DNA from: Frankia sp. R82
GTDB taxonomy: Bacteria > Actinomycetota > Actinomycetes > Frankiales > Frankiaceae
DNA length: 64,000 nucleotides
Assembly (NCBI RefSeq): GCF_023716925.1
Contig: NZ_JAMQQG010000043.1
Span: 1 to 64,000 of the forward strand
Direction of reading: 5' to 3'
In this document: positions 4,269-37,265 of the stretch, in pieces
Numbering within the stretch: the first letter of the stretch is position 1
Layout: each line of letters opens with the position of its first letter
Made by a program: the position numbers and the translations under genes
The notes under the pieces: model-generated
Told to the model about the DNA's origin: nothing
The model's database searches: none
What the model saw: only the letters and a program-made list of their open reading frames with translations

Positions 4269-5073
4269 AAATCTCGCCCTCATAGCCAGTCCGCTCGATC
4301 TCCTCGCCGGGCACCAGGCTGCGCATCCTGGCCAGCAGCACCACGGGGCGCAGGTGTTTCGGAACGCGGAACTGGGCCGCCATCAGCTGGTCACCTTGCC
4401 GCTGGTCAGCTCGCTGGGCCGGTAAAGGGCGCAGGCCGGAGGCGAGGCCGCTCGGTTTCGGCGGACAGCTGTTGAGGTGACGTAGTCCGTCCAGGATGCG
4501 ATGGAGCAGCGCCGGGTCGTCCTCGAAGGCTGAGGGGTGTTCCGGTGTCGGACTGGAAGAACGCGAACGTTTCGGCAGTGCCGTTTCGGTGTGGCCGGTG
4601 TCGGGGTGCGCCGGCTCTGTGCGTGCGGCGAGCTGGGCCCAGACGATCTTGCCGCCGCCGCGGGGGTGGTACCAGGACCATCGCAGGCAGAGTGCGTCGA
4701 CCAGGACGAGGCCGCGGCCGTTTTCGTCGTCGTCGCTCGGGTCGGCCAGGGTGGGTGGGGTGTCGCTGTCGTCCCAGACCTCGATGGTCAGGGTCGGGCC
4801 GGTGAGGGTCAGCCAGAGTACGTTTCCGGCGTTCCCTTCGCTGATCTTCGTGGCGTTCGTGGCGTTCGTGGCGTTCGTGGCGTTCGTGGCGTTCGTGGCG
4901 TTCGTGGCGAGCTCCGACACGACGATCTGTGCCGACTCGACGGTGTCCGAGTCCAAATGCCAGGCATGCAGGGTCTGGACCGCGGCGGCCCGCACGGCCG
5001 GGATGGCGGTCATGGCGGCGGGGAAGTGGTCGACTGCCATGCGGACGGCGAGTGCTGGAAGCGCGGCGGTCAC
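4255..5073 (-). CDS. HATPase_c domain ATP-binding protein, 3' end truncated by IS insertions
   Basis: From GTG 5073 the product is 272 residues. It has a GHKL ATPase fold: N-box SELATNA (53-59), G1-like DDSDTPP (101-107), G2-like NGRGLVLVDAL (118-128) and GGGKIVWAQL. Such RsbW-like proteins occur beside Xre-DUF5753/DUF397 pairs in actinomycetes, exactly as here. The GTG overlaps the stop of a 24-codon upstream frame (GTGA). A 9-bp tandem repeat follows the N-box. The last codons (IWIWR) come from IS DNA, so the native C-terminus is lost. ATP-site function may survive; the original role is not certain. Confidence 0.7.
   Translation of the reverse strand: MTAALPALAVRMAVDHFPAAMTAIPAVRAAAVQTLHAWHLDSDTVESAQIVVSELATNATNATNATNATNATNATKISEGNAGNVLWLTLTGPTLTIEVWDDSDTPPTLADPSDDDENGRGLVLVDALCLRWSWYHPRGGGKIVWAQLAARTEPAHPDTGHTETALPKRSRSSSPTPEHPSAFEDDPALLHRILDGLRHLNSCPPKPSGLASGLRPLPAQRADQRQGDQLMAAQFRVPKHLRPVVLLARMRSLVPGEEIERTGYEGEIWIWR
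4849..4911 (-). repeat. 9-bp tandem repeat encoding Asn-Ala-Thr units
   Basis: Six perfect copies of CGTGGCGTT (4849-4902) plus a partial copy to 4911. Read on the minus strand they encode consecutive NAT triplets directly after the N-box SELAT of the HATPase gene. The unit is a multiple of three, so copy-number change keeps the frame. Confidence 0.9.
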
Positions 5074-6972: not shown

Positions 6973-7379
6973 AGACTGGGCCCGGACGCTGGAAGGATCC
7001 TGGGAAGAAATCCGGGAACATGCGCAGGAACGCCGGATTCAGCCTCCTCTCATGTCGAACCCTGAGTACGACAAAAGAACGGCCCCTGATCCGACGGTCG
7101 CGTATTCATTCGGCCCGACCCTTGACAGTACCTCCCGGGATTCGTCTTTTGGCCATGTCGGACGGCATGGAAGAAACACGCAGAGCGACGAGATTCTTCT
7201 CATAGGCGTGCCGGCGGAGCCGCCACACATCACCCCTTCGGTGGGAAGGGTGTTGTTGCGTATTCTGCTGGAGGTGCGCACCTCGCGGCAGGCTGAGGAT
7301 TCCCGCGTCGAACCGGATGCGCCGCGCGAGGAAGCATCGCTATCGGAGCCCTTGCCGCCGTCTCATCTCGAAGGAAGCA
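6973..7379. other. intergenic region between the CRISPR remnant and the first recombinase
   Basis: Several overlapping frames are open here but none has both a ribosome site and plausible composition. I see no gene. The segment is less GC-biased than its surroundings, with patches such as GTATTCATTCGGCCC. It may hold the left remains of the element to which the recombinase at 7380 belongs. No second att core is visible. Confidence 0.4.
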
Positions 7380-9080
7380 GTGATCAGGTTTGCTTTCTAT
7401 GGCCGGGTGTCCACGGAGGACCAGCAGGATCCCGAGGCCTCACGCGCCTGGCAGCTCGCCCGCGCCCAGGCCCTCGTCGATGCCCACGGTGAGATCGTCG
7501 GCGAGTATTTCGACATCGGCCAGTCCCGTTCGCTGCCGTGGAAGCGACGGCCTCGGGCCAACGAGCTGCTGGCCGCGCTGCGCGACCCGGATCGCGGCTT
7601 TGAGGCGGTCGTCATCGGTGAACCGCACCGGGCGTTCTACGGCAACCAGTACAGCCTCGTGCACCCGGTGTTCGTGCACTTCGGCGTCACCCTGTGGGTA
7701 CCGGAGGTAGGCGGCCAGATCGACCCGACCTCCGAAGCCCACGACCTGATCATGTCGGTGTTCGGGGGGATGTCCAAAGGCGAACGGGAAAGAATCAAGG
7801 TTCGGGTGCGATCCGCCATGGCCGTCCAGGCCAGAACCGAAGGCCGGTTCCTCGGTGGCCGCCCACCCTACGGCTACCGAATGATCGATCTTGGCCCGCA
7901 TCCCAACCCGGCCAAGGCGGCTGACGGCCGTCGATTGCATGGCCTTGCCCATGACGAACAGACCGCCCCCGTCGTCGTCCGGATCTTCACGGAGTTCCTC
8001 GCTGGTAGCGGCCTGTTCGCGATCGCTGAAGGGCTGACCCGCGCAGGCGTCCTCAGCCCCTCTGCCTATGATCCGGCCCGCAACTCCCATCGCACCGGGA
8101 AGGCCTGGTCGAAGGGTGCGGTCCGGGCGATCATCACCAATCCCAGGTATACCGGCCGCCAGGTCTGGAACCGCCAGCGCAAACAGGAAGTCCTGCTCGA
8201 CGTCGAGGACGTCGGCCTCGGCCACACCACCAAGTTGCGGTGGAACCCGGATGACAGGTGGATCTGGTCTGAGAACGCGGTCCACCCGGAGATCGTCGAT
8301 GCCGAGACGTTCACCCAGGCCCAGCAGGTTCTCGCCGGCAGAGGACGGGGCCCTGGCGACGAGAAGCTGCCGCGCACACGCCGTTCCTACGCGCTGCGGG
8401 GAGCGGTCTACTGCGGCGTGTGTAACCGCAAGATGCAGGGACACACGGTGCGTGACGCCGCCTACTACCGTTGCCGCTACCCGCAGGAGTACGCGCTGGC
8501 GAACACGGTCCGTCACCCGGTGAACGTCTTCGTCCGCGAGGACGTTATCCTGCCCGCGCTGGACAGCTGGATCGCCCGCGCGTTCGCACCGCCGCGCCTG
8601 TCGGACACCCTGCAGGCCATGGCGGCAGCTCAGGCCAACATGTCATCCCACGATCTCGCGATCGACCAGGCCCGCCGGGCGATCGAGGAGAGCAACGCCA
8701 AGCTCGTCAACTACCGGGCAGCCCTGGACGCCGGCGCGGACCCCGTGGTCGTCACCAGCTGGATCGCCCAGGCCCAGGCAGCGAAGACCACCGCCGAACG
8801 GAACCTCCGCGAGGCCAGGAGAACACAGACACAGACGCTGAGCCACGAGGAGATCGCCGCCCTGGTCGAGGAGCTCGGCGACGTGGCCAGCGCACTCGGC
8901 GAAGCCGAACCTGCCGAGAAGGCCGACCTGTACCGCCAGCTCGACCTTCGGCTGACCTACCAGCCATCCACCAACACAGTGAAGGCCGAGCTGAAGATCA
9001 ACTCGGCCTACCGTGGGGTAATGGAACGTGTCCGAGGGGGGACCCGTCCCGAACTCCATGCAAATGGATGTCGAGTTTGA
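7380..9080 (+). CDS. large serine recombinase (integrase) of an older tandem element
   Basis: GTG at 7380 after AAGGAAG; 566 residues. The N-terminal resolvase domain has RFAFYGRVSTEDQQDPE with the catalytic Ser near residue 10. A recombinase domain follows, with GGRPPYGYR and AIITNPRYTGRQVWNRQRK. A zinc-ribbon piece (CGVCNRKMQ...YYRC) and a coiled-coil (about 420-520) come next. Large serine integrases insert phages and ICEs by attP x attB exchange. The last codons run through the 20-bp att core at 9024-9043. It is close in sequence to the broken recombinase at 60033 but is intact here, and could act on both ends of the neighbouring element in trans. Confidence 0.92.
   Translation: MIRFAFYGRVSTEDQQDPEASRAWQLARAQALVDAHGEIVGEYFDIGQSRSLPWKRRPRANELLAALRDPDRGFEAVVIGEPHRAFYGNQYSLVHPVFVHFGVTLWVPEVGGQIDPTSEAHDLIMSVFGGMSKGERERIKVRVRSAMAVQARTEGRFLGGRPPYGYRMIDLGPHPNPAKAADGRRLHGLAHDEQTAPVVVRIFTEFLAGSGLFAIAEGLTRAGVLSPSAYDPARNSHRTGKAWSKGAVRAIITNPRYTGRQVWNRQRKQEVLLDVEDVGLGHTTKLRWNPDDRWIWSENAVHPEIVDAETFTQAQQVLAGRGRGPGDEKLPRTRRSYALRGAVYCGVCNRKMQGHTVRDAAYYRCRYPQEYALANTVRHPVNVFVREDVILPALDSWIARAFAPPRLSDTLQAMAAAQANMSSHDLAIDQARRAIEESNAKLVNYRAALDAGADPVVVTSWIAQAQAAKTTAERNLREARRTQTQTLSHEEIAALVEELGDVASALGEAEPAEKADLYRQLDLRLTYQPSTNTVKAELKINSAYRGVMERVRGGTRPELHANGCRV
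9024..9043 (+). repeat. left attachment core (attL) of the 52.7-kb element
   Basis: GAACGTGTCCGAGGGGGGAC, identical over 20 bases to 61675-61694. It lies in the last codons of the intact recombinase gene. The right copy continues into tRNA-Leu, so this left copy marks the junction with the older element. Confidence 0.9.
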
Positions 9081-16420: not shown

Positions 16421-16927
16421 TTAGAAGGGAGGTGCGTCGGAGTACGCGCCCGCGGGGGCCGCCTGCGACCACGGATCGCCCGCCGCCGACGGCTGCTGGC
16501 CGGCGGGGCCCTGCGCCGGCGCCTGCTGGCCGTACCCCTGCTGCTGCCCGCCGCCCTGGCCCCGCTCAGCCCGGGCCACCCTCGCCGTCGCGTACTTCAG
16601 ACTCGGACCCACCTCGTCGACGTCCATCTCGATGACGGTGCGCTTCTCGCCCTCGCGGGTCTCGAACGACCGCTGCTTCAACCGGCCGGTCACGATCACC
16701 CGCATGCCCTTGCGCAGCGACTCGGCGACATGCTCCGCCGGCTGCCGCCAGAGCGAGCAGCGCATGAATAGCGGATCCGCATCGCGCCACTCGTTCGTCT
16801 GCTTGTCGAATGTCCGTGGGGTCGACGCCACGGTGAAGTTCGCGACCGCAGCACCGTTCGGCGTGAACCGCAGTTCGGGATCGGCAACCAGGTTGCCCAC
16901 TACAGTGATCGTCGTCTCTCCGGCCAT
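16421..16927 (-). CDS. ssb: single-stranded DNA-binding protein
   Basis: 168 residues. OB fold (1-110): [60 protein letters not shown] and [21 protein letters not shown] Gly/Gln-rich linker and the tail DAPPF follow; the tail resembles the acidic DDDIPF tip that recruits partner proteins but is shortened in acidic residues. SSB coats ssDNA during replication. It sits directly downstream of the primase-helicase and initiator genes, forming a replication operon. Confidence 0.95.
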
Positions 16928-16938
16928 TTCTCTACTCC

Positions 16939-18729
16939 TCAACTCGCATTCGTGCCGTGAATCCACGACACGTTGCTGCTCTCGTCCGCCTCATAGGACC
17001 GGTCCTGTCGAGGTGGGTTCACCTTCAGCACCTCGATCGAGCTCTCCACCTCCTCTTCGCTCCACAGCGGCTGCCACGGCCAGCGCGCCCCCCACTTCAT
17101 CGCCATCGGCCAATCCCGCTCGTCGCGGTCCCCGCGGAACCGGCCCAACGTCAGCAGGCGGTTCGTCGGATCGTCCGGGTGGGGTACGAGCTTGATGCCG
17201 AACTCGGGCCAGCGTGACCACACCCCGGAGTTCATCGGCCGAAGGTTCCGCCCCCCTCCGGTGTCCAGGGGTGCGTGGGTTTCGAGCCACAGGGCCGTAC
17301 CGAAGGTGGCCCGGATGTTGTCGAGGATCCGCGCCACCTCCCCGTTGATCGTTTCCGCCTTTTCGCCGTTCTCGAGGAAGCTTTTGTACAGCGGGCCGAG
17401 GCAGATCAGGTCCGGCTCGGTCATTTCGCACACCTGGTGCAGCGCCTTCAGTTCCGAGCCGGACCGCAGATCAATGCCCGCCGGTTGTGTCCACAGCCAG
17501 CAGCGGCCCGTCTCGTAGGCACGTTCCATCTCCACCGCGCGAACAATGTTTCGAGTTTTCCGTCGAATGTTCCTCGGAGGGTTCTCCAGATCCACGATCA
17601 ACGTGCGGACCGGTGGGATCTGCTCGAACGTAAACGGGTGAATTCCCTGTGCTGCCATAATAGCAACCTGGCGGGCCATCTGTGTCTTCCCCGCACCTTC
17701 CGGGGCGACAATGACAACCCGGTCCATGCGCTCGAGAAGGCCCGGGATAAGCCAGTCGAACTCCTCCTCCGCAGTGGAGATGAACGAGTGCAGCTCATGC
17801 AGGCCGGTGATTTCCGCTTCGGGGACGTCCAGGCCGGTGACGAGCTCTCGGACGTAGGTCATCGCCTGCTTCGATGTGCGCTTCGGGTCGTTCGCCGCCG
17901 CGGCGATCTGCCCAGCGAGGGCCATCAGCGCGGCCCCCATCAGCTGCCGCTCCGTCGACGGCCCGGACGGCGCCTCCTCCGGGATCAGCCGGCCGAGGTC
18001 CCGGACATCGCGGCCGGCAGCGAGATGGTCGTGGAGATCCTTGTGGTCCGGTGGGATCCACAGGTGCACCGTGGCCGCGTACTCGGCGACCTGGTCGGCG
18101 ACGGCCTGGGCGTGGAGCCGGCCCGGGTCGTCGTTGTCGGCGACGACGTGCACCGTCGCACCCTTGAAGATCTTCGAGTAGTCGCGGCGCCATTTCCCGG
18201 CGCCCTGCGCGTTCGTGGTCGCAACCCAGCCGGCCCGTTCGGCGGCGTGGACGTCTTTCTCCCCCTCGCAGATGATCACCGGCTGGCCGGCGGCGACCGC
18301 GGCGAGGACCTTCGGGAGCCGGTAGATCGGCGGGGTGGCGCCGCCGAGCCCCCACGTCCACTGGGAGCCGTCCCAGTGCTGCTGGCGGAACGTCTTCGGC
18401 ACGAACCGGAGGACGCGGATCGTCGGCTGACCGTCGGCGGTCTCGTAGACGTACGTGGCCGTCGGCGTTCCCAGACCCTTCGTTTCCCGAGGTGGGAACA
18501 GGTCGGCCATAGACAGCCCTGCGGCGGCGAGCACCGAGTCGGTGTCGCAGCCGCGATGGCACTGGATCAGCACGTGCCCGTCGGGGTTGACTCCGATCGA
18601 CAGGGACGGGTCTCGGTCGCCGTTGGCGTGGGCCTCGGTGGGGCAGCGGGCCGCCCAGCCGGTTCCGGAGCTGCGGGTGCCGTGGAAGTGTTCGAGGACG
18701 CGGGCGATCGGCCCGTCGGCGGCGCTCAT
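16939..18729 (-). CDS. primase-helicase fusion: zinc, Toprim and RecA-fold domains
   Basis: 596 residues. An N-terminal zinc-type region ([20 protein letters not shown], then CHRGC) resembles the CHC2 part of primases. A Toprim fold (about 135-215) has [18 protein letters not shown] and [21 protein letters not shown] RecA/DnaB-type ATPase has Walker [11 protein letters not shown] (about 338-347), [11 protein letters not shown] and [12 protein letters not shown]. Such proteins prime and unwind DNA for phage or plasmid replication. The start overlaps the initiator stop (ATGA). An open upstream extension to 18954 is Arg-rich noise inside the initiator gene. Confidence 0.93.
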
Positions 18730-19619
18730 CGGTAGACCACGCCGGCGTCCCAGGCGAGCTGGGTGGTTGCTGCTCGGCGTCGGGCCTGCTGCCCGATCCG
18801 GCCGCGGTCGATGTCGTCGCGGACCCAGTTCCGCCAGGCGGCCTGCCAGTCCTTCTTCGCGGCGTTCCGGCCGGAGGCAGCCGCCCAGTAGTCGCGGAAG
18901 CGGGCCAGGGTGCGGATCGCCTCGTCGCGGGTCACGCCCTGCTCGAGCGTCCACTCGGCCATGCGCTCGGACGGTTTCCAGTCCTGCGGGAGGCGGGTGG
19001 CCCGCTTCGAGTCGGACGTGGGGATCGGGATGACCTTCGCGTCCGGGGCCTCCTCGGCGGTCTGGGCCGGAGGGGTTTCCTCGCGTGTGTGTGCGTTCGC
19101 GTGCGCGGACACATCCCGAAGGGATGGGTCTTGGTTTGACTCCGTAGGAGTCATGGGTGGTTTAGATGTACTTGGTTTGGGTGACATGGGTGTCACCCCG
19201 TTCTGGACACCGGTGTCACCCCGTTCCGACGCCGATGTCACCCCGTTCTTGCCGATCGGGGTGGCGCTAGTGTCACCCCGCTTGCCGGGTGGGCGTCCTG
19301 AACGGGGTGACGTTTTGTCGTGCCGTTCCCGGCGCATGGACATGTTCAAGTCCCACACCACCGGGCGGCGGTCGGGCGGGTAGTGGGAGACGTGGGCCTG
19401 GTCGCCACGAGATATCAGTCCGCGCTCTTCAAGGCTGCTTAGGTGCCGCTGCACGGTCCGCTCGTGGACCTCGATGTCCTCGGCGATGTTGGGGACGGAG
19501 GGGAATGCGTGACGGCCGTCGCGGTCGGCCTGCTCGGCGAGACGGACGAGAATCAGGCGGGCAGTCGGGTCTCCTGCGGGGGCGTCGTAGAGGGCCCAGG
19601 AGACGGCAGTGGTGCTCAC
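18726..19619 (-). CDS. replication initiator-like helix-turn-helix protein carrying internal iterons
   Basis: 297 residues. The N-terminal winged helix (about 1-75) has HAFPSVPNIAEDIEVHERTV and QRHLSSLEERGLISRGDQAH. A variable hydrophilic linker (100-200) includes GDT/GVT repeats. The C-terminal helical domain (RATRLPQDWKPSERMAEWTL..., WAAASGRNAAKKDWQAAWRN) is like DnaD/phage replication proteins. The linker DNA holds iteron-like repeats, the arrangement of lambda gene O, where the initiator binds an origin inside its own gene. Overlaps primase-helicase downstream. Confidence 0.85.
   Translation of the reverse strand: MSTTAVSWALYDAPAGDPTARLILVRLAEQADRDGRHAFPSVPNIAEDIEVHERTVQRHLSSLEERGLISRGDQAHVSHYPPDRRPVVWDLNMSMRRERHDKTSPRSGRPPGKRGDTSATPIGKNGVTSASERGDTGVQNGVTPMSPKPSTSKPPMTPTESNQDPSLRDVSAHANAHTREETPPAQTAEEAPDAKVIPIPTSDSKRATRLPQDWKPSERMAEWTLEQGVTRDEAIRTLARFRDYWAAASGRNAAKKDWQAAWRNWVRDDIDRGRIGQQARRRAATTQLAWDAGVVYR
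19104..19311. other. candidate replication origin with iterons inside the initiator gene
   Basis: Direct repeats (G/A)TGTCACCCCGTTC at 19190-19203, 19213-19226, 19235-19248 and 19270-19283 (the last with a two-base change), spaced 23, 22 and 35 bases, plus an inverted copy GAACGGGGTGAC at 19300-19311. Adjacent is a comparatively AT-rich stretch (19125-19185) with the dyads GACTCC-GTA-GGAGTC (19138-19152) and CATCCC-GAA-GGGATG. Two-turn spacing and an AT-rich neighbour are the hallmarks of iteron origins. The role is inferred. Confidence 0.65.
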
Positions 19620-22660: not shown

Positions 22661-22893
22661 GCGCCCACCGTCGCCGTCACGTCTCGCCGCTCCGCGTTGC
22701 CGCCGCCGGCGCCGCGTTCTCCGCCGCGGTCGCAGGTGTCACAGCCGCCGGTAGCTCGGGCCGTCCGCCTGCCGTCGAGTCCACGGTTGTGCCGGTGAGG
22801 TCCACGGTTGTGCCGGTGAGGATGTGGGACCCACGGCCCTCGGGCCCCGCTGGTGGGGATCTGATTGCCATCGCGTTCGGGGAGCGCCACTGA
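22657..22893 (+). CDS. small protein with signal-like N-terminus and an internal duplication
   Basis: 78 residues. The basic N-terminus MSAHRRRHVSPLRVAAAGAA is followed by FSAAVAGVTAAGSSG, resembling a signal or membrane segment. An exact 21-bp tandem duplication (22779-22799 and 22800-22820) encodes STVVPVRSTVVPVR. Overlaps both neighbours by 3-4 bases. Confidence 0.55.
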   Translation: MSAHRRRHVSPLRVAAAGAAFSAAVAGVTAAGSSGRPPAVESTVVPVRSTVVPVRMWDPRPSGPAGGDLIAIAFGERH

Positions 22894-25130
22894 TGCCTAC
22901 GAAGATCGAATGGGTCCGGAACGTCGACGGCACCCCAGGCGAGACCTGGAACGTAATCGACGGATGCTCCAAGATCAGTAGCGGTTGTGACAACTGCCTC
23001 GCCCCTGAGACACGGGTCCTCCGCGCGGACATGGTCTGGGTCCCGATCAAGGACATCCAGGTAGGCGACCGCCTCGTGAGCTTTACCGACACCCCGGCGG
23101 TTGGCCAGAACCGAGTCTGGGAGGAAGGGGTCGTCGAAGCCGTCTGGGAGACGGAGAAGCCGACAGTCGAGTTCGAGTTGGCGAACGGTGCCCGCGCAGT
23201 CGCCAGCGAAGACCACAAGTGGCTGATCGCAAAGCGGGGCGCGTCGCAGTGGTGGCGGTCCACCGTAGATCTCACCTTCAAGACCCCCGTCCGAACTGTG
23301 CGGCTGGCAGGAGGCGACCTCCGGACGTCAACCGACTACCGAGCTGGCTACATCGCCGGTGTCACAGCCGGTGATGGAACCTTCCGGTGGGATTCGTCAT
23401 GGCGGTCTGACAAGCTCGGGTTCCCCCAGTCCTACTGGCGTGTCGCGAAGCCGGAATCGGACCGGGTCGTACTCGATCGGCTCGTCGACTACCTGAGCCA
23501 CTTCGAGATCGACGTCGCTGTTCGGCCCTTCGACAGCGGGCCATCGGTGTTCACCGACAACCCGGTCCCCATGGCGAAGGTCGAGACCCGTCGGCTCGCC
23601 CACATGCCGCTCATCGCCGGCCTCTGCGAGGAACGGCCGACCACCGAGTGGATGACCGGATGGCTCGCGGGCATGTTCGACACCGACGCCTCGTACACCG
23701 GAGGCAACCTGCGGTTCCACCAGGCGAAGCCGAACGACGTGCTGGACATGGCAGTCCGGTTCGCGAAGGAGCTTGGCTTCGAGCTGAAGCGTGAGGACTA
23801 CTCGGGCGGATGCCCGGGGGCCCGTCTCGTCGGTGGGATCCCAGAGAACATTGCCTTCCTCGCCGCGATCTCGCCTGCGATGACACGGCGCTGCCAGGAC
23901 TTCTATGGCCGCAGAGTCGAAACCGAAGACCACATGGTGGTGGGTGTCCGCCGCGGTCCCGTCCGTCGCCTCGTCGACATCACCGTGTCGACCGGGACCT
24001 TCGTGGCGGAGGGGATGCTGACCCACAACTGCTACGCGGCCACAATCGCCCACCGGTTCGCCGGCACCAAGGCCTACCCCAACGGCTTCAACATCACCGT
24101 CCACCCGGAGCGGCTCACCGCACCGCTGCGCCGCCGCAAGCCCACCACCTACTTCGTCAACTCCATGGGCGACGTCTTCCACGACGACGTTCCCGACGAG
24201 GCGATCGTCCGCATGTGGGCGGTCATGGCCGCCACCCCGCAGCACACCTACATCGTGCTCACCAAGCGTCACGGCCGGATGCGCTCGTTCCTCCGCGACG
24301 AATGCCGCTGCGGCGCTGGCCACCAGCCGGGCATTCACCTGCGCTCGGCGATGGACTGGGCGTCCACCCCGCACAGCCCGACGTACGTCCCGGGCATCGA
24401 GCCGGGCCTGTACCACCGGATGCGGTGGCCGCTGCCGAACGTCTGGCTCGGGGTGAGCGCCGAAGACCAGCGGACCGCGGAGCTGCGCATCCCAGCGCTG
24501 CTGGCAACACCGGCCGCGGTCAGGGTGGTGTCCGCCGAGCCGCTCCTCGGCCCGGTCGATCTCACCAGGCTGAAGGCGCGGAACGGCGCCCACATCGACG
24601 CCCTCGCCGGGGACGTCATCCACCCGGTAACGGGTGAGATCTACGCGGCGGCGCCGGGCTGCATCGACTGGGTGATCGTCGGCGGCGAGTCGGGCCACCG
24701 GGCCCGGCCGATGCACCCGCTGTGGGCCCGCGGCCTGCGCGACCAGACGACCAGCCGGGGTCGGGCCTTCTTCTTCAAACAGTGGGGGTCTTGGGGTCCG
24801 GCCCAGCACAAGGTGCCCGTCGACCCGGAGCTGGTCGAACGGTGGGCGGCGGACCGGGGCGACCCGGCGCTGGTCGCCGAACTGAACGCCGCCAAGGCCG
24901 CCTCTGAGGCGGTCGGTGCCACCCACGGCTACGCCGTCTGGGCCGACCAGTACGGCTGGCAGCCCCACGAGTACTCCCACCGGCCGTGGTCCGTCGAGCG
25001 CAGCTCCGTCGACGAGTCGATGCACGCCTCGATCCGCCGGTGGGGTGTGAAGGCCGCCGGCCGCGAGCTGGACGGCCGGGTCCACGACGACATGCCCGCC
25101 CGCCACGCCCCCGCAGGAGCCGCATCATGA
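22893..25130 (+). CDS. DUF5131 (phage Gp37/Gp68) family protein interrupted by a LAGLIDADG intein
   Basis: 745 residues as a precursor. The host protein begins KIEWVRNVDGTPGETWNVID then GCSKISSGCDN, and resumes CYAATIAHRFAG. Joined, this is the Cys cluster GCx(6)CxxCYA of DUF5131 proteins, which resemble radical-SAM enzymes. Later motifs are SMGDVFHDDVPDEAI, YIVLTKRHGRM, LGVSAEDQRTAELRIPALL, VSAEPLLGPVD, WVIVGGESGHRARPM and FFFKQWGSW, all present. Intein residues 35-379. After splicing about 400 residues remain. Biochemical role is undetermined. Start ATG overlaps the previous TGA. Confidence 0.9.
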   Translation: MPTKIEWVRNVDGTPGETWNVIDGCSKISSGCDNCLAPETRVLRADMVWVPIKDIQVGDRLVSFTDTPAVGQNRVWEEGVVEAVWETEKPTVEFELANGARAVASEDHKWLIAKRGASQWWRSTVDLTFKTPVRTVRLAGGDLRTSTDYRAGYIAGVTAGDGTFRWDSSWRSDKLGFPQSYWRVAKPESDRVVLDRLVDYLSHFEIDVAVRPFDSGPSVFTDNPVPMAKVETRRLAHMPLIAGLCEERPTTEWMTGWLAGMFDTDASYTGGNLRFHQAKPNDVLDMAVRFAKELGFELKREDYSGGCPGARLVGGIPENIAFLAAISPAMTRRCQDFYGRRVETEDHMVVGVRRGPVRRLVDITVSTGTFVAEGMLTHNCYAATIAHRFAGTKAYPNGFNITVHPERLTAPLRRRKPTTYFVNSMGDVFHDDVPDEAIVRMWAVMAATPQHTYIVLTKRHGRMRSFLRDECRCGAGHQPGIHLRSAMDWASTPHSPTYVPGIEPGLYHRMRWPLPNVWLGVSAEDQRTAELRIPALLATPAAVRVVSAEPLLGPVDLTRLKARNGAHIDALAGDVIHPVTGEIYAAAPGCIDWVIVGGESGHRARPMHPLWARGLRDQTTSRGRAFFFKQWGSWGPAQHKVPVDPELVERWAADRGDPALVAELNAAKAASEAVGATHGYAVWADQYGWQPHEYSHRPWSVERSSVDESMHASIRRWGVKAAGRELDGRVHDDMPARHAPAGAAS
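22995..24029 (+). other. intein with homing endonuclease domain, 345 residues
   Basis: Block A begins at Cys35 (CLAPETRVLRADMVWVPIKD), block B-like NGARAVASEDHKWLI follows. LAGLIDADG motifs are YIAGVTAGDGTF and WLAGMFDTDASY. The C-terminal blocks read VDITVSTGTFVAEGMLTHN, ending His-Asn with +1 Cys. All splice-junction residues are intact, and both endonuclease motifs keep an acidic residue, so splicing and homing could be active. Confidence 0.92.
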
Positions 25131-33872: not shown

Positions 33873-35342
33873 ATGCTCCGCACGCCCGAGACCACCGACC
33901 TCGCGCCCGTCGACCCCGTGGAGCGGCGTGTGGATGCCGACGCCGACGTCGACCGCGACTTCCGTCGGGCGAAACTCCAGCTCGAAATCGAACAGCTCCA
34001 GCAGGCCGCAGCCGACGAACGCGAGGCGAAGCTGGCCGCCGCAGCCAAGGCCGAGAAGGCCGACAAATGGGCCGGCCGGAAGGCCGCTGTGAACGGCACT
34101 CTGGCCGCGCCGGTCCGCTACTGCCGGCGGAGCGCCGCCGGCGCCTGGTCTTCGATCGTCTACGCGCTCGCCGTCGGCACCGCCGTCTACGGGCAGATCA
34201 CCATCGCAGTGGATCTGCTCCACTGGCCCACCCCCGCTGGGGTCGCGGTCGCAGGCTTCGTCGAGGGCCTTGCCCTCAGCATGGCGCTGACCGCACACGA
34301 GCTGAGGATGCGCGGCGAGCGGGCCTTGGCGCCCCGGGTCCTGACCTGGGTTGCCGCCGGGTTCGCCGCCGCGGTCAACGGATATGCGCACAGGGACGAC
34401 GCGGTTGCTGCGGTTCTTCTTGCTGCCGCTTCTCTCGCGGGCATTACGGTCTGGGAAATTCGCACCGGCGCCCGAAATCGTGGGGAGCTGCGCGCACTCG
34501 GAATCATTGCGGTTCCCCGCCCCCGCCTCGGGTTGGCCTACTGCGTCCGCTTTCCGGTCCGCGCATTCTGGGCGTGGACCGCAACGATCGCCTATCCGGC
34601 TATTCGGACGCGGGCTGAGGCCATCGACATTGGCATGGGGCTCAGGTCCGTCCGGCGAGCGGACCGGTGGAAGAACTTCCAGCAGACCGCGGCGGACGAT
34701 CTTCTCCCGGTCCGGTCCGGCGAGACTCCCGGTCCGGAGGGTCCGGGTGGTGCGGACGACCCGGTCCGGATGGTTGCGGACTGGTCTGTCCCGTCCGGCT
34801 GGGTTCCGGACCGGACCGCGATCACCGCCGGACCGGACCGGGCCGAAGCGGACCGGACCGCAGACGAGCGGACCGAGCCGCGGACCGGCATTGCGGACCG
34901 GTCCGGAGAGCCGGTCCGGACGGACTGGACGCCGGACCGGAGCGCGGACCGGACCGGACCGGACGGGGAGGTTGCTGCGGACCGGTCCGCAGACCAGGAG
35001 GTTCCGGTCCGGACCGGGCTGGCGGACCGGTCTGCCAGTGGGGCCGAGGATGCGGACCGGTCCGCGGAGTTGCGGACCGAGGAGGCGTCCGAGGATGGCC
35101 CGTCCGCGGACGAGATGGAGCCTGCGGTCCGGGATGCGCTGCCGTTGGTCCGGCCGTTCGCCGAGGTGTTGTGGATGCGCGGCGACAAGATCAACAGGGA
35201 GACGTTGCGCGCCGAGATCAGGAACGCCCCCGAGGACCGCAAGATCAAAATTGAGAACGGTCTCCTCGGCAAGGTCAGCCAGATCCTCCGCGCCGAACTG
35301 CCCCTCCCCTCCCCCGAGGAGAGCGAGGCGACCACCCGATGA
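33873..35342 (+). CDS. DUF2637 (SpdB-like) membrane protein with repeat-rich linker
   Basis: ATG 33873 with AAAGGGGTGACC upstream; 489 residues. A helical N-terminus (25-70) leads into four membrane spans (about 92-113, 122-142, 155-171, 176-196), the DUF2637 layout shared with SpdB plasmid-spread proteins of streptomycetes. Residues 285-395 are Asp/Arg/Thr/Pro-rich, encoded by the GGACCGG repeat array. The C-terminal 80 residues (AEVLWMRGDKINRETLRAEI) look like a small DNA-binding or winged-helix unit. In the family it aids intermycelial plasmid transfer. Confidence 0.8.
   Translation: MLRTPETTDLAPVDPVERRVDADADVDRDFRRAKLQLEIEQLQQAAADEREAKLAAAAKAEKADKWAGRKAAVNGTLAAPVRYCRRSAAGAWSSIVYALAVGTAVYGQITIAVDLLHWPTPAGVAVAGFVEGLALSMALTAHELRMRGERALAPRVLTWVAAGFAAAVNGYAHRDDAVAAVLLAAASLAGITVWEIRTGARNRGELRALGIIAVPRPRLGLAYCVRFPVRAFWAWTATIAYPAIRTRAEAIDIGMGLRSVRRADRWKNFQQTAADDLLPVRSGETPGPEGPGGADDPVRMVADWSVPSGWVPDRTAITAGPDRAEADRTADERTEPRTGIADRSGEPVRTDWTPDRSADRTGPDGEVAADRSADQEVPVRTGLADRSASGAEDADRSAELRTEEASEDGPSADEMEPAVRDALPLVRPFAEVLWMRGDKINRETLRAEIRNAPEDRKIKIENGLLGKVSQILRAELPLPSPEESEATTR
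34667..35057. repeat. GGACCGG/CCGGTCC repeat array, left cluster
   Basis: About 24 occurrences of GGACCGG or its complement CCGGTCC in roughly 400 bases inside the DUF2637 gene, many overlapping (GGACCGGACCGG, GGACCGGTCC). They are read as ADR, DRT, RTG and PVR, that is in more than one frame. The second cluster is at 36502-36831. Confidence 0.85.
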
Positions 35343-36260: not shown

Positions 36261-37265
36261 ATGATCGAAACCCTGATCGTCATCTGGCTCGCCAAGACCC
36301 TCTTCGAGGTCGTCAGCGACGTCGTCCTCAAAGAGACAGCGTTGATCAAGGGTAGGGAGGTCGAGTTCGCCAACGGACGACGCTTCCGAGGACGCAGCCG
36401 GGGCGCCCTGTGGGGCACCCTCACCAACGCCGCCGGCGAGGTGTGGCAGACCAACTGGTCCGCCCGGAAGAGCTTGCGGGCGGAGAAGGCCCGGGTCCGC
36501 GCGGACCGGTCCGCGGAACGGTTCCGCGATCGGGAGAAGCGGCGGGCGGACCGCCGTCGCGGACCGGACGGTCCGGAGCTCGACGTCCCGGACTGGATCC
36601 GCGACCCGGCCAACCCAGCCCGGTCCGACGATCACCGTCCGTCCGTCCGGACCGGCTCTCCGGACCGGACCGGCCCCGGACCGGACGGACCGGGCGGCAC
36701 CGGACCGGTCCGGACCGGCACACCAGCTCCGTCCGGACCGTCCGGACCGGGGGAGGCCCCGGCGGACCAGGCCCAGCCGGACCGCGGACCTGGCTCGAGC
36801 GGATCCCGGACCGGTCCGGACCCCGGACAGCCCGACGCCGACGTCGGCGAGCCGGCCCGTCCGGACGCACCCCAGACCGCCCGGCCGACGTTAACCCTCG
36901 TCAAAGACGACACGCCACCCGAAATCCCCACCCAAACAGCACCCCCCCGCATAATCGAAGGAGACGCCGTGCATTCCGGTGAGACCAGCAATATCGATGA
37001 CCTCACTAAATTCCTCCAGGGACTCGACACGTACGCCGCGCAGGTAATCGCCTCCCTGGAAATCGCCAGGGCCACCCTCAACCGGATCGGCCTCACCGAC
37101 CCGGGAGTTCTCGGACCGCTCGCCGGAATCGGCGAAAAGCTCGTCGGAATCCGTGTGGACGCCGGCAACGCGAATGCCGGCCTGATCCCGCACCGCAATG
37201 TGGGTGAGGCGGTCAGCGCAGCAACCGGCGCGGCGACCAGCACCGACTTCTACCAGCCCAGCTGA
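36261..37265 (+). CDS. transfer-cluster protein with membrane-proximal N-terminus and repeat-rich linker
   Basis: Very strong ribosome site GAGAGGAGGTGACACC; 334 residues. A hydrophobic N-terminal helix (IETLIVIWLAKTLFEVVSDV), a basic region (40-100), a long Pro/Gly/Arg/Asp linker (105-225) encoded by the second GGACCGG array, and a helical C-terminus (NIDDLTKFLQGLDTYAAQVI). No family recognised. The DNA repeat shared with the DUF2637 gene is the striking point. Confidence 0.7.
   Translation: MIETLIVIWLAKTLFEVVSDVVLKETALIKGREVEFANGRRFRGRSRGALWGTLTNAAGEVWQTNWSARKSLRAEKARVRADRSAERFRDREKRRADRRRGPDGPELDVPDWIRDPANPARSDDHRPSVRTGSPDRTGPGPDGPGGTGPVRTGTPAPSGPSGPGEAPADQAQPDRGPGSSGSRTGPDPGQPDADVGEPARPDAPQTARPTLTLVKDDTPPEIPTQTAPPRIIEGDAVHSGETSNIDDLTKFLQGLDTYAAQVIASLEIARATLNRIGLTDPGVLGPLAGIGEKLVGIRVDAGNANAGLIPHRNVGEAVSAATGAATSTDFYQPS
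36502..36831. repeat. GGACCGG/CCGGTCC repeat array, right cluster
   Basis: About 15 copies of GGACCGG or CCGGTCC within 330 bases, in codons reading SGP, PDR, RTG and GPD. All three frames are used, unlike a simple protein repeat. The next gene but one base cluster is the FtsK/TraB-type translocase at 37347. Confidence 0.85.

Follow-up and report, generated by a model that had tools for sequence, protein, structure and literature searches.

A probable prophage replication origin with iterons inside its own initiator gene in Frankia sp. R82

In a 64,000-nucleotide stretch of Frankia sp. R82 (contig NZ_JAMQQG010000043.1, positions 1 to 64,000; here called the window), a gene encoding a replication initiator contains an array of short direct repeats, followed by an AT-richer stretch and two dyads. 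We consider it highly probable that this interval is a prophage replication origin lying within the initiator gene, with iterons that would be bound by the gene's own winged helix and a mechanism as proposed below. This origin role is what we infer from sequence comparison. The initiator very probably binds the iterons of its own gene, because residue 58 of the protein predicts base 8 of the iteron across relatives, a covariation that would be hard to explain otherwise. Origins within initiator genes are already known; what would be new to a specialist is the family-wide code and the hairpins. The literature searched yielded lambda-type origins but no description of a one-residue code or of the hairpins; it covered subscription papers thinly and is thus weak evidence on this point.

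The initiator gene and its iteron array

The initiator gene is followed downstream, in the same direction, by genes for a primase-helicase and a single-strand DNA-binding protein (SSB), in that order (Table 1). The initiator has an HTH_36 winged helix-turn-helix domain at residues 1-95 (Pfam PF13730, E 4e-12), a disordered linker at about 105-205, and a DnaT-like C-terminal domain at about 209-271 (PF17948, E 5e-5, just under Pfam's cut-off). Its top PHROG is phrog_1032, "replication initiation protein," a full-length family match (E 1.8e-40, residues 1-274); the "O-like" families phrog_391 and phrog_8540 match residues 1-181 (1.9e-16) and 14-179 (2.6e-13), respectively. The Pfam search gave no match to Phage_rep_O or to Rep_3. 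In the AlphaFold model, pLDDT is about 97 for residues 1-100, about 95 for residues 211-270, and below 50 for most of the linker, which is disordered and of low complexity; the recognition helix spans residues 53-66 and includes residue 58. A sequence search found no solved structure of a relative, and a fold search returned only generic winged-helix matches, all above E 0.001. Members of the gene family usually carry no annotation beyond that of an HTH protein.

The primase-helicase, which we propose as the partner of the initiator, matches AAA_25 (7.7e-18), Toprim_3 (6e-5), phrog_6088 DNA primase (9.7e-29), and phrog_239 primase/helicase (4.4e-25). A large serine integrase marks the element as integrated; together with an antirepressor, an endolysin-like gene, and members of further phage families, it also marks the region as a prophage. 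If this prophage is defective, as it may be, its origin could be inactive today. No close DNA relative of the replication module was present in the phage collection searched.

Table 1. Coordinates of the replication module, the iteron array, and the adjoining features in the window
Feature	Position	Strand	Details
Large serine integrase	7317..9080	+	Recombinase 2.6e-21, Resolvase 1.2e-9
SSB, third gene of module	16421..16966	-	PF00436 5e-30; phrog_44 1.4e-51
Primase-helicase (Toprim + AAA_25), next gene of module	16939..18729	-	Start codon inferred
Initiator gene	18726..19619	-	Product 297 aa
Hairpin 2, CATCCC-GAA-GGGATG	19112..19126	+	6-bp stem, C-GNA-G triloop
AT-richer stretch, proposed unwinding element	19133..19191		53% AT versus 31% for locus
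Hairpin 1, TGACTCC-GTA-GGAGTCA	19137..19153	+	7-bp stem, C-GNA-G triloop
Inverted partial copy, GGGTGACA	19179..19186	+	Directly after iteron 4; array end on AT-rich side
Direct iteron 4, GAACGGGGTGACA	19191..19203	-	Closest to AT-rich stretch; read NGVTPM; 8-mer 19192-19199
Direct iteron 3, GAACGGGGTGACA	19214..19226	-	Read ERGDTG; 8-mer 19215-19222
Direct iteron 2, GAACGGGGTGACA	19236..19248	-	Read NGVTS; 8-mer 19237-19244
Degenerate inverted copy	19254..19266	+	3 mismatches; doubtful as site
Direct iteron 1, AAGCGGGGTGACA	19271..19283	-	2 mismatches to 13-mer; spacing 35; read KRGDTS; 8-mer 19272-19279
Inverted iteron, 5' side of array	19300..19312	+	12/12 core, 1 mismatch in 13-mer; KTSPRS on coding strand; 8-mer 19304-19311

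The initial annotation had placed four direct copies of a repeat (one imperfect), at 22- to 35-base spacing, and one inverted copy in the linker of this gene. All were located there, 300-430 nt into the gene, and the remainder of the gene was indeed free of them. The 13-mer TGTCACCCCGTTC is exact at iterons 4, 3, and 2, with spacings of 23 and 22, and the 8-mer GGGGTGAC is present on the coding strand in all four direct copies. The iteron core, GGGGTGAC(A), is direct and non-palindromic, and its copies mostly follow one another at 22-23 bp. An inverted partner exists for the terminal copy alone: the partial copy GGGTGACA, with which iteron 4 forms the palindrome GGGTGACATGGGTGTCACCC. An inverted half copy stands at this place in 22 of 45 GGGGTG-type relatives.

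From one direct copy to the next, the reading switches between two frames (RGDT, NGVT, RGDT, NGVT), and the inverted copy is translated as TSPR. Given the same protein and the codon usage of the element, 0.73 copies of GGGGTGAC would be expected in the initiator gene and 5 are seen; none of 20,000 synonymous recodings reached 5 (P ≤ 5e-5). Since the repeat is read in different frames and strands and was never reproduced by synonymous recoding, it is a repeat of DNA and not of peptide. In the window, GTCACCCCGTTC with at most one mismatch occurs 5 times against 0.69 expected, 4 of them in the array, and no second array of the iteron word was found. The whole 6.9-Mb genome has 11 exact copies of GTCACCCCGTTC; just one other contig has two of them, at a distance of 1.8 kb.

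Repeats and recognition residue across the family

Searches by protein similarity in bacterial genomes and viral contigs, together with phage records, gave 85 non-redundant genes that range over Actinobacteria, Proteobacteria, and viral metagenomes. The conservation of the array is seen directly in their sequences: an 8-base word of the linker is repeated beyond synonymous shuffles of the same gene in 76 of 85 at P ≤ 0.05 (56 at P ≤ 0.005), and the other nine do not fit the pattern. The initial annotation had named, as a finding that would speak against an origin, linker repeats common to homologues as peptide and not as DNA. The opposite was found, as 66 of the 76 relatives with significant repeats have same-strand copies in two or three frames, and the word varies among relatives together with a DNA-recognition residue of the encoded protein. 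Both open frames are used in 63 of 86 pattern-found genes, the third frame giving a TGA stop. The iterons follow closely on the winged helix, with a common spacing of 22 nt and often an inverted copy first, and the order of iterons, AT-rich tract, and dyads is also a family feature.

In a reverse test, IMG/VR stretches with three iteron words were selected on DNA alone, and the identity of the gene was then checked. Among the matches listed, the triple array lay inside an initiator family gene in 109 of 120 cases for GGGGTGAC, 102 of 120 for GGGGTGCA, and 80 of 120 for GGGGTGAA; of the 40 non-fitting GGGGTGAA arrays among the 120 listed, 11 were less than 500 nt from the end of the locus.

Residue 58 (window numbering) goes with base 8 of GGGGTGAC: Arg is found with C, and non-Arg residues with A, in 62 of 62 alignable genes (Fisher 2e-18). 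The iteron word covaries with a residue at least 45 amino acids away, in the DNA-binding helix. On a tree of this first set, built without the helix, each trait changes 10 times, and all 10 node-disjoint pairs are concordant. The GGGGTGCA and GGGGTGAA scans were chosen to test the code on data that had not been used to find it. Among the matches listed, Arg58 was present in 0 of 84 distinct winged helices with GGGGTGCA arrays and 1 of 64 with GGGGTGAA, compared with 96 of 96 for the GGGGTGAC arrays scanned earlier (Fisher 1.7e-68). On a tree of 213 members of this independent set, one trait has 24 changes and the other 25; 23 of 24 independent pairs are concordant, with L550 as the one exception. 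The relatives are not independent, and such trees address kinship only in part. Where residue 58 is not Arg, Tyr, Leu, and Ser accompany TGCA, and Lys and Gln accompany TGAA. Profile positions 31-73 align ungapped to residues 159-201 of the CAP chain 1hw5_A, where residue 58 is opposite the residue numbered 186, which we take to be the base-contacting R185. In a scan run without phylogenetic control, the top mutual-information z (26) linked wing residue 83 with the base 5' of GGGG; this residue might make a further contact that sets specificity, or might simply mark a clade.

Phage initiators of the phrog_1032/HTH_36 type, including those of Arthrobacter phages Kepler and Abidatro, Gordonia phage DatBoi, and Pseudomonas phage JBD68, belong to the same family and carry identical or related iterons at the corresponding place, with words that differ (TGCA, TGAA, GGGGGGAC, and CCGGAC). 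They are usually annotated just as "HTH DNA binding domain protein" or hypothetical, and no origin is annotated in the feature tables of the phage records examined. One IMG/VR contig (3300025941_000016, L220) encodes a primase-helicase 73% identical over its length to that of the window and has two CTCC-TAC-GGAG hairpins after its iterons. Its initiator is about 42% identical, with a different iteron, GCGGGGTGCCG. Because the primase-helicase is similar while initiator and iteron are different, the latter two appear to change together, independently of the partner. Relatives of the initiator were also seen on 34 plasmid records, among them P. aeruginosa NZ_CP124653 and the Streptomyces plasmids W9 and W75; some of the 34 are phage-sized, and the internal origin may also serve plasmid-like elements.

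The AT-rich stretch and the hairpins

The AT-richer stretch and two dyads that the initial annotation had noted beside the repeats are both present (Table 1). Across the family, the 60 nt that follow the last iteron exceed the locus in AT content by 12-13 points, and the coding strand is A-rich (mean of 75 genes). AACC[GA]TCC-type repeats are enriched in this stretch of the relatives (63 seen, 1.7 expected). They occur in each of the three frames, mostly spaced 10-13 nt, and resemble the short repeats of other unwinding elements. In the window, the coding strand is likewise A-rich and has only AAACCA motifs, which are degenerate forms of AACC[GA]TCC and a poor version of the 11-nt repeats of the relatives.

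Read along the coding strand, the hairpin loops are C-TNC-G, which makes them C-GNA-G on the opposite strand; C-GTA-G and C-GAA-G are on the + strand. In DNA, a GNA loop has exceptional stability when G-C pairs close it, and both dyads conform to the rule for C-GNA-G mini-hairpins, a C-G closure with at least 2 G-C pairs (PMC4686876). Folded as DNA, the pair reaches -13.6 kcal/mol (z -5.1), and both strands fold well (z -5.1 and -4.4). Stems in relatives extend to 12 bp in L248, 10 bp in L231 and L273, and 9 bp in L238, and L220 has two copies. Since stems are selected by pairing, their covariation would be circular and was excluded from the evidence; only the loop enrichment was used. CTACG words with a stem of at least 6 bp make up 9 of 88 in linkers versus 4 of 2,628 elsewhere. 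Hairpins of the C-GNA-G type occur in only about one family gene in ten. As to a link between hairpins and primase-helicase, only 5 of the loci had a relative of the latter, of which 3 also had hairpins, and a wider search added few; these are too few to conclude from.

Two further hairpins were seen outside intact members of the family. In L005 (1586, +), a CCTTCTTC-TAC-GAAGAAGG hairpin comes immediately after a different, DnaT-type replisome gene that contains a TETETET repeat (CAGAGA words), which suggests that the hairpin is not tied to the HTH_36 initiator. In a same-family genome, L003 (2413, -), a broken initiator locus with an internal stop has a 10-bp CTTGCTTCCC-TAC-GGGAAGCAAG hairpin nearby.

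Proposed mechanism, rival readings, and known systems

In the mechanism that we propose, the winged-helix domain would bind the GGGGTGAC iterons in its own linker, which are about two helical turns apart (22-23 bp). Several bound initiators may then wrap or bend the array, by which the adjacent AT-rich stretch would open. The product of the next gene, the primase-helicase, would be recruited by the DnaT-like C-terminal domain, with SSB coating the opened strands. Just past the AT-rich stretch, the exposed strand probably folds into the stable C-GNA-G hairpins, which may mark the site of primase-helicase loading or of priming. A wider proposal is made more tentatively, as possible though somewhat short of likely. 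It would have this initiator represent a very widespread family with a linker origin and a readable code (Arg58 for C8; Tyr, Leu, or Ser for TGCA; Lys or Gln for TGAA), in which initiator and origin evolve as an exchangeable unit, and the hairpins, found in a subset that includes this prophage, would be strand-specific loading or priming signals for the phage-encoded primase-helicase.

The disorder and low complexity of the linker, and the likeness of peptides such as NGVT and RGDT, could mean that selection acts on protein repeats (GVT/GDT) and that the DNA repeat is secondary. This we regard as scarcely credible, as a single DNA word gives GVT, GDT, and the inverted TSPR within one gene, most pattern-found genes use both open frames, synonymous shuffles fail to yield the repeat, and the word covaries with a distant residue of the recognition helix; for the family, the frame test and the shuffles refute a peptide-repeat explanation. 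Alternatively, the protein could be a transcription regulator that represses or roadblocks its own gene through the iterons as operators, with replication absent or secondary. Its winged helix is of a general regulator type, and many iteron initiators autoregulate. The sites, however, are inside the gene rather than at a promoter, and are followed in fixed order by the AT-rich tract, AACC repeats, and hairpins; with PHROGs replication families matching over the full length and replication genes as neighbors, this reading is improbable. Slightly less probable again is an array for copy control or centromere-like partition, titrating the initiator while the true origin lies elsewhere. Iteron plasmids do have additional arrays outside the core origin, but the window has no second array of the word, the array adjoins an AT-rich tract, as in an origin, and no partition gene was recognised among the neighbors examined.

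A separate question concerns the dyads, which might be features of RNA with no role in replication, either terminators or hairpins of the transcript, as CUACGG and CUUCGG look like UNCG tetraloop hairpins. The stems, however, pair in triloop and not in tetraloop register (7 and 6 bp here, and longer in L248), and no T-run comes after them, which speaks against identification as UNCG tetraloops or terminators. With the enrichment of C-TAC-G loops in linkers and the good DNA folds of both strands, an RNA role for the dyads is unlikely, and formation as DNA at the origin is the reading that we prefer.

The initial annotation had likened the interval to the lambda O/ori layout. The layout and logic agree (iterons, AT-rich tract, dyads), but not the type of iteron or the O-P partner pair. 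In lambda, the initiator gene carries initiator-binding iterons and an AT-rich tract at its centre, where a linker joins the DNA-binding and helicase-recruiting parts, and in lambda O and its Stx phage relatives extra iterons lengthen the protein by added amino acids (PMC7466680). The interval here is similarly placed, and its AT-rich tract beside the iterons is likewise strand-asymmetric, with an A over T skew in both window and family; the asymmetry is one of A/C versus T/G, rather than of purine versus pyrimidine. An iteron of lambda measures about 19 bp. It is an imperfect inverted repeat to which O binds as a dimer (PMC7466680; PMC5043065), unlike the non-palindromic direct iterons found here. 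The initiator is HTH_36 and DnaT-like; O-like PHROGs match its residues 1-181 and 14-179, but it has no Phage_rep_O match in Pfam. The Toprim and AAA_25 primase-helicase differs from lambda P, a loader acting on host DnaB. We conclude that the probable origin would work like ori-lambda with different parts and is not a member of the lambda O/P module.

Direct, helically phased iterons beside an AT-rich region with short repeats are also typical of iteron plasmids (PMC5043065). In this respect the array resembles those of RK2, P1, F, and R6K, although their iterons are outside the rep gene and those of the prophage are inside the initiator gene. The initiators of iteron plasmids are of another family, the Rep_3 type.

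For most temperate phages of Actinobacteria, Pseudomonas, and uncultured hosts, no origin has been mapped. If the proposed reading is right, sequence alone would be enough to locate the origin of any family member, one residue would predict its specificity, and joint exchanges of initiator and origin could be recognised as those of a single unit. The hundreds of matched protein-DNA pairs would be a natural set for studying the evolution of winged-helix specificity, and the hairpins would be a lead on primase-helicase loading at phage origins.

Other features were seen elsewhere in the window. A DUF5131 gene (phrog_2045; 22824-25130, +) has an intein-like insertion of ~340 residues (about 57-400), for which NCBIfam gave two matches below their cut-offs, one to an intein-containing radical SAM family (4.5e-25) and one to intein_Nterm (0.0077). 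Inside a histidine-kinase-like ATPase gene, at 4847-4891, a GCCACGAACGCC-bearing word occurs three times head-to-tail with 18-bp spacing, and clusters of CCGGTCCG-type repeats are found at 34706-35060 and 36645-36731.
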